From Kribbella rubisoli (GTDB lineage Bacteria; Actinomycetota; Actinomycetes; Propionibacteriales; Kribbellaceae), in contig NZ_SHKR01000018.1 of assembly GCF_004217145.1 (NCBI RefSeq), positions 124,001 through 188,000 on the forward strand: a stretch of DNA of 64,000 nt, read 5' to 3'. Shown here in pieces: positions 44,976 through 62,252 of the stretch; the stretch's first letter is position 1, and each line of letters begins with the position of its first letter. The position numbers and the translations under genes were made by a program. The notes beneath the pieces are model-generated. The model was not told the DNA's origin, ran no database searches, and saw only the letters and a list, made by a program, of their open reading frames with translations.

Positions 44976-45470
44976 TCAATCCGGCGGCTCCAGATGCGCC
45001 AGCCAGGCTGTGAGGATGGTCTCGAGTTGAGCCTGCTGGGTTGCGCTGAGCGGTTCGAGCAATCGCTTCTCGTTCGCCATGTGGGCGGCGAAGGCCTTGT
45101 CGATCAGCCGGCGTCCGGCCGGGGTCAGGCGGACCACGCGACCGCGCCCGTCGTCGTCGCTGCGCCGGCGCCGGACCAGGCCGGCCGCCTCGAGCCGATC
45201 GACGCGTTTGGTCACCGCGCCGGTCGTCACCATCGTGTGCAGCGCGATCTCCCCCGGCGCCCGCTCGTACGGCGAACCCGCGCGCCGGAGCGCCGCGAGT
45301 ACGTCGAACTCCCCCTCCGACAGCCCGTACTTCGCGTACAGCAGCGTCAGCTCACCGGTGAGCTGATTCGCGATCCGGTGCAGTCGGCCGATCACGCCCT
45401 GCGGGCCGGTGTCGACATCCGGCCGCTCCGCCTGCCACTCCGCCTGGATCCTGGCCACGTGATCGGTCAC
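44976..45470 (-). CDS. MarR-family regulator
   Basis: About 164 residues from the GTG at 45470, chosen because a TATAGT hexamer lies exactly 7 bases upstream; an ATG at 45512 is a longer alternative. Winged helix: LLYAKYGLSEGEFDVLAALRRAGSPYERAPGEIALHTMVTTGAVTKRVDRLEAAGLVRRRRSDDDGRGRVVRLT. The dimer helices flank it. It diverges from an EamA exporter and shares a palindromic promoter with it, so it probably represses both and releases them on binding a small phenolic or drug-like ligand. Confidence 0.9.
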   Translation of the reverse strand: MTDHVARIQAEWQAERPDVDTGPQGVIGRLHRIANQLTGELTLLYAKYGLSEGEFDVLAALRRAGSPYERAPGEIALHTMVTTGAVTKRVDRLEAAGLVRRRRSDDDGRGRVVRLTPAGRRLIDKAFAAHMANEKRLLEPLSATQQAQLETILTAWLAHLEPPD

Positions 45471-45476
45471 GCGTTC

Positions 45477-45504
45477 CACTATATCTTCCCGGGAAGATAT
45501 AGTG
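45477..45504. promoter_or_regulatory. Symmetric bidirectional promoter/operator between marR and the EamA gene
   Basis: A perfect 28-bp palindrome (left arm CACTATATCTTCCC 45477-45490, right arm its complement 45491-45504). Each arm contains TATAGT as a -10: plus strand 45498-45503, minus strand 45483-45478. In both directions the start codon follows after 7 bases (ATG 45511; GTG 45470), so both mRNAs would be leaderless. A second palindrome TCTTCCATGGAAGA (45505-45518) overlaps the EamA start codon. Confidence 0.8.
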
Positions 45505-45510
45505 TCTTCC

Positions 45511-46401
45511 ATGGAAGATACCTTCCGCTGGACCCTGGTCACCGCGATCGCACCCATCGCCTGGGGCACGAACTACTTCGTCACGCACGAGTACCTGCCG
45601 ACCGGACACCCCTTGTACGGCGCAGTGTTCCGCGCCCTGCCCGCCGGACTCCTCCTGCTCTGCGTGGCCCGGCGTCTCCCCCGCGGCGTCTGGTGGTGGC
45701 GATCGCTGCTTCTCGGTGTCTGCAATATGGGCGCGTTCTTCGCGCTGATCTACCTCGCGTCCCAACTGCTTCCGGTCAGCCTCGCGTCGACGATCATGTC
45801 CGCCTCGCCGCTCACGATGGCGCTCTTCGCCTGGGCGCTACTCGCCGAACGACCGACCGTTCCGGTCCTCACCGGCGCCGCGGCCGGGATCGCCGGCGTC
45901 TGCCTGCTCCTCGGCACCGGAACGACCGCCGTGAACCTGCACGGTGTCGCCGCCTCGGTCGCCGCCCTCACCATGTCGTCCTTCGGCTACATCCTCGCCA
46001 AGAAATGGGGCCGCGCCGACGGCCCGATCGCAACCACCTCGTGGCAACTGATCGCGGGCGGCCTGGTCCTGATCCCGTTCGCACTCATCTTCGAGGGCGC
46101 ACCACCCCACCTCGACCTACCCGCCATCGCCGGTTTCGCGTACGTCGGCCTGATCGCGACCGCCCTGGCATTCACAGCCTGGTTCGCGGGCCTACGTCAT
46201 CTCAGCGCGGCAACCGTCGGGCTGATCGGGCTCCTCAACCCGGTGACCGGCGTACTGCTCGGCGTCCTGGTCTCGGGCGACGTACTCACGCTTCGCCAGG
46301 TGCTCGGCCTAGCCCTCGTCCTCTTCGGCATCACACTGAGCCGTCGGCGCGGATCTTCCGGGTGGGTCAGGTGGACGACACGGAGTAGGAGTTGCTGGTG
46401 A
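45511..46401 (+). CDS. EamA-family (DMT) exporter
   Basis: 296 residues with about ten membrane helices arranged as two EamA repeats (first: VTAIAPIAWGTNYFVTHEYLP...; second: VAALTMSSFGYILAKKWGR...). Drug/metabolite transporter family. Start at the ATG 7 bases after TATAGT; an in-frame GTG lies 9 bases earlier. Regulated by the divergent MarR through the palindrome. Its 3' end overlaps the GH12 gene on the other strand by 35 bases. Confidence 0.87.
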   Translation: MEDTFRWTLVTAIAPIAWGTNYFVTHEYLPTGHPLYGAVFRALPAGLLLLCVARRLPRGVWWWRSLLLGVCNMGAFFALIYLASQLLPVSLASTIMSASPLTMALFAWALLAERPTVPVLTGAAAGIAGVCLLLGTGTTAVNLHGVAASVAALTMSSFGYILAKKWGRADGPIATTSWQLIAGGLVLIPFALIFEGAPPHLDLPAIAGFAYVGLIATALAFTAWFAGLRHLSAATVGLIGLLNPVTGVLLGVLVSGDVLTLRQVLGLALVLFGITLSRRRGSSGWVRWTTRSRSCW

Positions 46402-47059
46402 AGTTCTGGCCGCCGGACGACGACGTGATCTCGAAGCCGAACTGGACCTCGCCGACTGTGGCGTCACCCATCCAGCCCTGACCGCGGATCCAGTTCAGGA
46501 CGGCCTTCACGTCGACCGATCCCGAGTTCGTGTTGGACGTGCGGAGGAACGAGAACACCGCGTTGGCGCCGTTGCTGCCGCGGTAGACGTCCCAGGTGTG
46601 ACCGCCGACGGAGACCGTGGTCTGCTTCGACCCGATCGCACCGACCGCCCCCTGCTTGTTCATCCACAGCATGATCTCGTAGGCGTTGTTGTCGGCCCAG
46701 ATGTCGTACGTCGTCGCGTAGGCGCCGCTGCCGGGCCGGGACACGTTGAAACTGCTGGTCAGAGAACCAAGGGCACTGACCCGCTTTCCGACGTTGCGGG
46801 CGGAGTGGGGGTATGCCTTCACGCCGCCGGTGTTCGGGTGGTCGGCCCAGACTCCCCAGTTGCTGTAGGAGTTGGCCCAGATCGTCTGAGCGCCGGCACC
46901 ACTGCCCCAGACGTCATTGCGGATGGTGTACCCGCCGTTGGACCAGGTACCGAACTTGTCCGACGACGACCACGCCGCCGCGTCGGCCGGTGCCGCGGTC
47001 ACCAAGCCCGCGGCCAGTACTGTCAGCACTGCTGTTGCTGCTTTCCACCATCTCGGCAT
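46367..47059 (-). CDS. Secreted GH12 endoglucanase/xyloglucanase
   Basis: 230 residues. Start at MPRWWKAATAVLTVLAAGL, giving a Sec signal peptide cut after ADAA (about residue 28); a longer frame upstream is not signal-like. GH12 fold with nucleophile Glu128 (YEIMLWMNK) and acid/base Glu210 (VQFGFEITSSSGG), plus IRNDVWGSGAGAQTIWANSYSNWGVWADHP. GH12 enzymes cut beta-1,4-glucans including xyloglucan; the surrounding genes favour xyloglucan. No binding module. The operator at 47127-47142 lies between it and lacI, and a -10 TATACC (47119-47114) is visible on its strand. Confidence 0.9.
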   Translation of the reverse strand: MPRWWKAATAVLTVLAAGLVTAAPADAAAWSSSDKFGTWSNGGYTIRNDVWGSGAGAQTIWANSYSNWGVWADHPNTGGVKAYPHSARNVGKRVSALGSLTSSFNVSRPGSGAYATTYDIWADNNAYEIMLWMNKQGAVGAIGSKQTTVSVGGHTWDVYRGSNGANAVFSFLRTSNTNSGSVDVKAVLNWIRGQGWMGDATVGEVQFGFEITSSSGGQNFTSNSYSVSST

Positions 47060-47126
47060 TTCGTTTCCTCTCGTTGGGGCGAACGCAGGGGAAGAACCGT
47101 GGGCGAGTGCAGGGGTATAAAGGGGT

Positions 47127-47142
47127 GTCGAAGCGCTTCGAC
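47127..47142. promoter_or_regulatory. LacI operator between GH12 and lacI
   Basis: GTCGAAGCGCTTCGAC, a perfect 16-bp palindrome with the central CG typical of LacI operators. It sits just upstream of the GH12 -10 (TATACC, 47119-47114 on the minus strand) and of a possible lacI -10 (TAGAAC, 47148-47153), so one bound repressor could control both genes. The 14-base core recurs before GH3 (twice) and GH31. Confidence 0.8.
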
Positions 47143-47180
47143 TGGGGTAGAACTGGGGCAGGTTGACGAAAGGGAGTGCG

Positions 47181-48200
47181 ATGGTCACGATCGCGGACGT
47201 TGCCCGGCATGCCGGGGTCGCGGCCAGCACGGTGTCCTATGTGCTCAGCGGGAAGCGGACGATCTCGACCGACACCCGGGAGCGTGTGCAGCGCAGCGTC
47301 CACGCGCTCGGCTACCGGCCGAACGCGAGCGCCCGCGCGCTGGCCAGTCAGCGATCGAACGTGCTCGCCCTCGTCATCCCGCTGCGGACCGGGATGCATG
47401 TCCCGGTGATGATGCAGTTCGCCACGGCGGTCGTGACCACGGCCCGCCGGTTCGATCACGACGTACTGCTGCTGACCGCCGACGAAGGACCGGACGGGCT
47501 GGAGCGGGTCGCGCAGAGCTCGCTGGTCGACGCGCTCGTCGTGATGGACGTCGAGCTGCACGACGAACGCGTGCCGGTTCTGCGCGAGCTGCCGATGCCG
47601 TCGGTGCTGATCGGCTACCCCGACGACGCCGACGGACTGACCTGCATCGACCTGGACTTCGTTGCCGCCGGCGCGCATTGTGTCGACCACCTGGCCGACC
47701 TCGGCCACCGCTCGCTGGCCCTGCTCGGTACGCCGTCCGCCGTCTACGAACGCCAGACCGGGTTCGCCCAGCGGACGCTCACCGGATTCGTCGAGGCGGC
47801 CGAACGCCGCGGCGTGCTCGGGGTCGAAACGCCGTGTGAGCACACCTTCGACGCGATCCTGCACACGGTCGAGCAACTCCTCAGCGACCATCCTGACATC
47901 ACCGGACTGGTCGTCCAGAACGAGCCGATCATCGGCCCGCTGCTCGACGTCCTGCGCCGCCTCGGCCGTCGCGTTCCGGAGGACATGTCGCTGGTCGCGA
48001 TCTGCGCGGACGACGTCGCCGAGCGGCAGGTCCCGCAGTTGTCGTCGGTCAGCATCCCGGCGGAACGGATCGGCGACCAGGCGGTCGAGTCGCTGATCAC
48101 GAAGCTCGAGGGCGGCGATGTGCCCGGCCTGACACTGGTCCCGCCGACGCTGACCGCCCGCGGCAGCACCTGCCCTCACGTCGACCTCACCACGGCATAA
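47181..48200 (+). CDS. LacI-family regulator of the xyloglucan locus
   Basis: 339 residues from the ATG at 47181, preceded by AGGGAG at good spacing. Helix-turn-helix and hinge VTIADVARHAGVAASTVSYV, YRPNASARALASQRS; effector domain with ALVIPLRTGMHVPVMM, LADLGHRSLALLG, TGLVVQNEPIIGPLL. Gene and GH12 diverge around a perfect operator also present before GH3 and GH31, so this is the best candidate for the local repressor. The 3' end overlaps the GH42 gene by 25 bases. Effector likely a xyloglucan oligosaccharide or its sugar (inference). Confidence 0.9.
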   Translation: MVTIADVARHAGVAASTVSYVLSGKRTISTDTRERVQRSVHALGYRPNASARALASQRSNVLALVIPLRTGMHVPVMMQFATAVVTTARRFDHDVLLLTADEGPDGLERVAQSSLVDALVVMDVELHDERVPVLRELPMPSVLIGYPDDADGLTCIDLDFVAAGAHCVDHLADLGHRSLALLGTPSAVYERQTGFAQRTLTGFVEAAERRGVLGVETPCEHTFDAILHTVEQLLSDHPDITGLVVQNEPIIGPLLDVLRRLGRRVPEDMSLVAICADDVAERQVPQLSSVSIPAERIGDQAVESLITKLEGGDVPGLTLVPPTLTARGSTCPHVDLTTA

Positions 48201-62224: not shown

Positions 62225-62252
62225 AGCGTTGTCGAAGCGCTTCGACAACGCT
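62225..62252. promoter_or_regulatory. LacI operator upstream of GH31
   Basis: A perfect 28-bp palindrome: left arm AGCGTTGTCGAAGC (62225-62238) and its complement (62239-62252), centred on GCGC. It contains the shared core TCGAAGCGCTTCGA. It lies 20 bases upstream of the GH31 start codon on the minus strand, a position that would block transcription. Confidence 0.8.

Follow-up and report, generated by a model that had tools for sequence, protein, structure and literature searches.

A predicted doubly leaderless control region between divergent MarR-type regulator and EamA transporter genes in Kribbella rubisoli

The PecS-PecM systems are the closest described relatives of the locus analyzed here. 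In Agrobacterium fabrum, a MarR-type repressor is encoded divergently from an efflux pump gene and represses both genes, as described in the part of the paper compared (PMC12288460). For the PecS of Vibrio vulnificus, the text compared describes 18-bp palindromes, an N-terminal extension with a conserved Trp and a divergent pecM whose product has two EamA domains (PMC6391409). The divergent gene layout, the 18-bp palindromes, the N-terminal Trp and the two EamA domains recur in a 64,000-nucleotide stretch of Kribbella rubisoli DNA (contig NZ_SHKR01000018.1; hereafter the window, with positions counted from its first nucleotide), where a marR gene on the reverse strand faces an EamA transporter gene on the forward strand. 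Based on the sequence and on its comparison with related loci, we conclude with good confidence that the DNA between these genes serves as a control region common to a MarR repressor that regulates itself and the EamA exporter that faces it, in which a single operator would control two outward-facing promoters that have only −10 boxes and would produce leaderless mRNAs.

The two divergent start codons are 41 bp apart in the window, and between them is a perfect 28-bp palindrome whose loop-free arms (45477–45490 and 45491–45504, 14 nt each) are 100% complementary according to a repeat finder. Each arm contains a TATAGT box, and exactly 7 bases separate each box from its start codon, which is ATG 45511 on the forward strand and GTG 45470 on the reverse strand. 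The original prediction had described both this palindrome, with a box in each arm, and the two identical distances, and both descriptions were confirmed by the sequence and the repeat finder. It had also called the promoter perfectly symmetric, which is correct for the 28-bp core, but this does not hold for the entire promoter, because the 7-nt spacers fall outside the symmetry and a second operator is present on the EamA side alone. The pattern TATA[AG]T-N6/7-RTG matches only at the marR and EamA starts when both strands of the window are searched, and TANNNT itself has a background frequency of about 0.00075 per base on each strand of the window. By eye, without a formal test, no consensus-like −35 hexamer was seen at the expected distance in the window. 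As the two −10 boxes are separate, a bidirectional promoter with a shared −10 box is ruled out. According to base composition, 0.0013 perfect palindromes with arms of at least 14 nt are expected per 64 kb, and two are found in the window; this expected count, together with the conservation described below, rules out a chance origin of the 28-bp palindrome.

We then compared 102 distinct actinobacterial loci, including the window's own. A first search for relatives covered 58 genomes, and its best 30 matches were taken as loci (27 from Kribbella, including the window's own, and three from the same order). A second scan added 80 loci, the best 80 of at least 528, which were picked by the similarity of their MarR proteins and not by their promoters. 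The other genera among the loci are Streptomyces, Kitasatospora, Kutzneria, Amycolatopsis, Herbidospora, Nonomuraea, Cellulomonas, Leifsonia, Nocardioides and Micromonospora. From these 110 loci we removed eight duplicates, either identical in the compared stretch (L035, L039, L040, L041 and L072) or the same records (L036, L037 and L038). Box and start counts cover all 102 loci, while the operator analysis covers the 97 loci that follow the start pattern TTCC-RTG-GAA. Five loci fall outside of this pattern (L056, L061, L071, L081 and L098) and had their EamA starts set by hand; codon 2 is GAA in three of them, and not in L081 and L098. Within the 97 loci, the TTCC and GAA bases are invariant, codon 2 is GAA and its third-position GC content (GC3) is 0 because the selection pattern demands it.

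Leaderless genes in actinobacteria carry TANNNT about 6–7 nt ahead of the start codon and have no Shine-Dalgarno sequence, according to the portions of the sources compared (PMC3160421, PMC3898074). The marR gene has an in-frame start with TANNNT 6–7 nt ahead of it in 99/102 loci, or in 96/102 on a stricter count, when every in-frame candidate within 250 nt upstream is considered. As controls, eight other spacing pairs for TANNNT give 2–36 of the 102 loci, and 1–53 loci match when TANNNT is replaced by any of ten other motifs at the original spacing; the top control motifs, T..A.T (53) and T...AT (28), also match TATAGT and TATAAT boxes. A quick FastTree tree implies at least 25 switches of the marR spacer between lengths of 6 and 7 nt, and therefore the start codon and its box move together. 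Ahead of the EamA gene, TANNNT is found at N7 in 89/102 loci, at N6 in two and at N8 in three, and the remaining eight have the close variants CATAAT, CATAGT or AATAAT at N7. The start codons are 40–41 bp apart in 73 of the 97 loci. In 11 of the 97, there is no marR candidate 38–44 bp from the EamA start; five have it at 48–61 bp, three at 20 bp and three have none. A Shine-Dalgarno-like core between −14 and −4 is present at 7/94 marR starts and at 0/97 EamA starts, although the selection pattern itself requires TTCC ahead of the EamA start, and this alone removes most chances of finding a core there. The claim of the original prediction that both genes would be leaderless is well supported by this comparison, through the conserved TANNNT spacing. 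At one locus, L059, the EamA start is preceded by an extra operator-like copy that has a TATATT box and a GTG of its own, so that two candidate leaderless starts stand in tandem.

The conserved unit, as judged by its symmetry, is an 18-bp operator core with a predicted −10 box on each edge. Operator 1 retains 7–9 of its 9 symmetric pairs in 89/97 loci, and the overlap of this putative MarR site with both −10 boxes is conserved, in agreement with the earlier proposal that one MarR dimer would cover both. The second palindrome, which had been noted over the EamA start codon, is real: it has a perfect core, TCTTCCATGGAAGA (45505–45518), and extends to 18 bp with one mismatching pair. A search of the window's own 8.6-Mb genome for TATCTTCCNNGGAAGATA with up to three mismatches returned the two operators, at 0 and 1 mismatch, and two other sites with three mismatches. 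The second palindrome therefore reads as a second copy of the operator 1 core, here called operator 2. The two are spaced 21 bp centre to centre, or two helical turns, in 90/97 loci, and operator 2 retains 7–9 of 9 pairs in 80/97, its inner TTCC/GGAA pairs being fixed by the selection pattern.

The right half of operator 2 is coding sequence, and the codon usage indicates that it constrains the first EamA codons. GC3 is 0.20 at EamA codon 3 and 0.34 at codon 4, compared to 0.94 across codons 12–30. At codon 3, the rare codons that match the operator dominate: GCT accounts for 41/52 Ala codons (3.1% elsewhere in the genes), GAT for 15/20 Asp codons (14.6% elsewhere), AAT for 8/9 Asn codons (9.3%) and GGT for 8/10 Gly codons (10.3%). 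A strict form of the operator, TANCTTCCNNGGAAGNTA, occurs in 26 of 38 Kribbella genomes, at one site in each and always beside the marR match. Ten of the 12 genomes that lack it have no close marR orthologue in the 58-genome search; the other two are G034, whose orthologue (L023) has a changed site, and G058, which lies outside that search. Because the strict operator occurs at this locus only, the regulator seems, judged by strict sites, to be dedicated to this pair. A wider regulon was considered and rejected, as none of the 38 Kribbella genomes has a second strict site; diverged sites, with up to three mismatches, were sought in the window's own genome only.

The same plan is found a second time in Kribbella. 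A MarR paralogue at about 49.5 kb on contig 8 of the window's own genome (L117 1490–1660) also faces an EamA gene, and we examined this paralogous pair in that genome and in 15 Kribbella genomes picked by hand from the matches of the 58-genome search (L117, L120–L134). In 16/16 genomes, TANNNT is 6 nt ahead of the marR ATG and 6 nt ahead of the EamA GTG. The palindrome centred on the EamA GTG has a different sequence, CTTAGTGCTAAG, and L117 contains three copies of an CTTAGNGCTNAG-type operator, one of which is centred on that GTG. By the same criteria, the paralogous pair is predicted to be doubly leaderless, and coincidence becomes less likely because the plan recurs with another operator. 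A further MarR paralogue is listed as L118.

The EamA protein has two Pfam EamA stretches (E 8.9e-38) and its gene is divergent from marR. No NCBIfam model scored over its cut-off for either the MarR or the EamA protein. In an alignment of 11 MarR proteins out of the 30 first-search loci, the N-terminal extension carries a W12 that is invariant in 11/11 and that aligns with the Trp of 8ylf and 8ylh, the nearest solved structures (1.4e-38 and 2.3e-33). Residues D56, R89 and R101, also invariant in 11/11, align without gaps to structure 5dd8 at positions D73, R106 and R118 of HucR, which we take to be its urate-contact residues. We presume that 5dd8 is HucR; its length and matched ranges are the same as those of 2fbk (HucR). 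The sequence of 8ylh is the same as that of 8YLI and 8YLJ, which are PecS of Pectobacterium atrosepticum in the part of the source compared (PMC12893000), and the marR/EamA pair therefore resembles PecS-PecM.

There are other explanations for several of these observations. MarR could start at ATG 45512, from which the frame is open in the window and joins MarR; the two genes would then overlap head to head in CCATGG, both proteins would begin with MEDT, and the marR promoter would be located inside the EamA gene. This start, which the original prediction had itself listed as contrary evidence, is open and in frame in 41/102 loci (including the window), but 48/102 loci have the corresponding position out of frame and 13 have no start codon there, and the repeated 6/7-nt flips of the marR spacer would break that frame. 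With its frame or start codon lost in 61/102 loci, and a boxed start downstream in 99/102, we rule out the 45512 start as hardly credible. Ordinary leaders, also listed as contrary evidence, would be expected if the palindrome were solely an operator, the mRNAs began at promoters elsewhere and the TANNNT boxes were by-products of the operator's AT-rich edges. The TA of each box does overlap the operator's outer bases, so TANNNT is partly under operator constraint. However, the 6–7 nt between box and start are maintained while the spacer sequence and the marR start position vary, a Shine-Dalgarno-like core is absent at 97/97 EamA and 87/94 marR starts, and the arrangement of box and start survives in two loci without operator 2 (L081 and L098, which keep box-N7-ATG ahead of EamA). 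On the sequence side, leadered mRNAs are quite unlikely.

A different question is whether operator 2 binds MarR, or whether it is conserved because early codons that follow a leaderless start are preferentially A/T-rich. Early codons are generally biased toward A and T, and GC3 is also low at codon 4, which is partly beyond the 18-bp core. Codon preference would not account for the untranslated left half, which complements the coding right half (at the pair counts given above), nor for the 21-bp spacing to operator 1 or the different palindrome on the start codon of the paralogous pair, and we consider it an unlikely substitute for a second binding site. Lastly, a MarR positioned between two promoters may activate one of them instead of repressing it. 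There is a precedent in ForZ, a MarR regulator with a leaderless gene that is proposed, in the text compared, to activate itself while repressing its exporter (PMC12421854). Here, operator 1 overlaps both −10 boxes and should block rather than help, and the PecS of A. fabrum represses both of its genes in the part compared (PMC12288460), which makes activation very unlikely.

Several observations weigh against the shared, doubly leaderless control region that we prefer. The counts are not independent because the loci are related. The free choice of marR start allows two control spacings to reach 36/102 and 35/102. Three loci (L063, L100 and L107) do not have a marR TANNNT at N6–7, with the box being 8 nt from the marR start in L063 and L107. 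In L066, L070 and L095, the sole boxed marR start falls in the middle of operator 1, at a distance of 20 bp from the EamA start; these candidates are doubtful, and 96/102 is therefore the safer marR count. The symmetry of operator 2 is poor, at 5–6 of 9 pairs, in 17/97 loci. The allosteric loop of UrtR has a highly conserved T/S-S-G-T motif, in the part of the source compared (PMC12893000), while the window's MarR reads TTGA at residues 82–85; the same loop is TSGA in the L029 protein and SSGA in the L030 protein. Because TTGA misses the exact motif, we assert a working likeness to PecS-PecM and stop short of formal membership: the pair resembles one that would operate like PecS-PecM, with an UrtR-type MarR repressor and a divergent EamA exporter.

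The extent of the symmetry varies across loci. The perfect 28-bp symmetry is present in 10/97 loci, one of which (L107) has longer symmetry, and additionally in L061 among the 102; it is ruled out as the conserved unit. In the Streptomyces loci L061 and L107, perfect 54-bp palindromes span both start codons, each of which is within an operator copy; three further loci, L071, L102 and L025 (Kribbella), come near to this. As a rule, operator 2 is present on the transporter side. One could imagine that the whole promoter, including its start codons, is a single inverted repeat whose arms are kept in step by exchange, and that it is neutral in orientation, with polymerase loading as a coin toss and a repressor that reads operators at the start codons. 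We regard this broader proposal as doubtful, and rather less than likely.

Table 1. Positions of the predicted control elements and the two genes within the window
Feature	Position	Strand	Basis
Perfect 28-bp palindrome; houses operator 1 and both −10 boxes	45477..45504	.	Sequence, repeat finder
Operator 1 core TATCTTCCCGGGAAGATA, predicted MarR site	45482..45499	.	Symmetry conserved, strict pattern locus-specific
Operator 2 TGTCTTCCATGGAAGATA, dyad inside EamA start codon	45503..45520	.	Repeat finder, mismatch search, conservation
Predicted −10 box TATAGT of marR	45478..45483	-	TANNNT conserved ahead of in-frame marR start
Predicted −10 box TATAGT of EamA gene	45498..45503	+	TANNNT conserved ahead of EamA start
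MarR-type regulator gene (PecS/UrtR-like), GTG 45470 = predicted transcript start	44976..45470	-	Pfam MarR_2, E 2.5e-14
EamA/DMT transporter gene, ATG 45511 = predicted transcript start	45511..46401	+	Pfam EamA, conserved start

These features suggest how the shared control region may work. Two −10-only promoters would face outward from one operator, with transcripts that begin on the start codons, leaving both mRNAs leaderless. Without its ligand, MarR would bind operator 1 as a dimer, masking the inner end of each −10 box and shutting off both genes, and another dimer, bound two helical turns away at operator 2, would sit on the transporter's transcription and translation start. Because operator 2 covers that start, repression would have two steps, and the transporter would be held more tightly than the repressor, needing both sites to be free. 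A ligand, either urate or another small molecule, would release MarR, and a polymerase would then load in one direction or the other; starts that lie only 41 bp from each other would leave no room for two polymerases at the same time. The circuit has been shrunk to about 40 bp between start codons, apparently without a leader or ribosome-binding site, and part of an operator doubles as coding sequence of the gene under its predicted control. As the transcripts are predicted to start on the start codons and to share the operator, mutating a single arm should alter both outputs. Polymerase competition and leaderless translation thus become directly testable in one small and widely conserved element, which also makes it quick to recognize PecS/PecM-like loci in actinobacteria and the codons at which their genes probably start.

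Beyond the EamA gene, a glycosyl hydrolase family 12 gene (46367–47230, reverse strand) and a LacI-type regulator gene (47163–48200, forward strand) are divergent and are possibly another local pair of regulator and target. The other perfect 28-bp palindrome of the window (62225–62252, AGCGTTGTCGAAGCGCTTCGACAACGCT) is unrelated to the one at 45477–45504 and looks operator-like; by its resemblance, we take it to be possibly the operator of a LacI-type regulator.

Compared to known systems, the locus combines elements that have been described separately. In A. fabrum, the text compared reports three sites, with two overlapping ones that extend into pecM coding DNA, and 96 bp between the start codons versus 40 bp here, and it makes no mention of leaderless starts (PMC12288460). 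The palindromes of V. vulnificus PecS are, unlike operator 2, off-centre to the start codon in the part compared (PMC6391409). In Streptomyces formicae, ForZ-forAA has a MarR regulator that is divergent from an exporter, a leaderless regulator gene and a palindrome on the exporter's transcript start, as is predicted here; it differs in having a single 16-bp imperfect site that overlaps the regulator's −35 and not its −10, and the text compared does not describe the exporter's transcript start as a start codon (PMC12421854). The Rv1129c-prpD pair of Mycobacterium tuberculosis is likewise a divergent regulator and target, with both mRNAs mapped as leaderless, though its regulator is of another kind and the text compared describes no shared operator (PMC3898074). 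Bidirectional promoters in Escherichia coli share with this locus a symmetry that permits polymerase to load either way with steric exclusion, but in the part compared they have one shared −10 and starts that are commonly 10, 18 or 23 bp apart (PMC12825309), whereas here the two −10 boxes are separate and the starts are 41 bp apart.

Each element is therefore already known from PecS-PecM, ForZ or Rv1129c-prpD. Their combination was not found in the literature searched, which did not include the paper on the PecS of Streptomyces coelicolor, and an earlier description is possible. That PecS, from a relative of these bacteria, reportedly responds to urate and binds the pecS-pecM intergenic region, and it may be an orthologue of the window's MarR. 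The control region between marR and EamA is best described as a known arrangement in a compact, doubly leaderless form.
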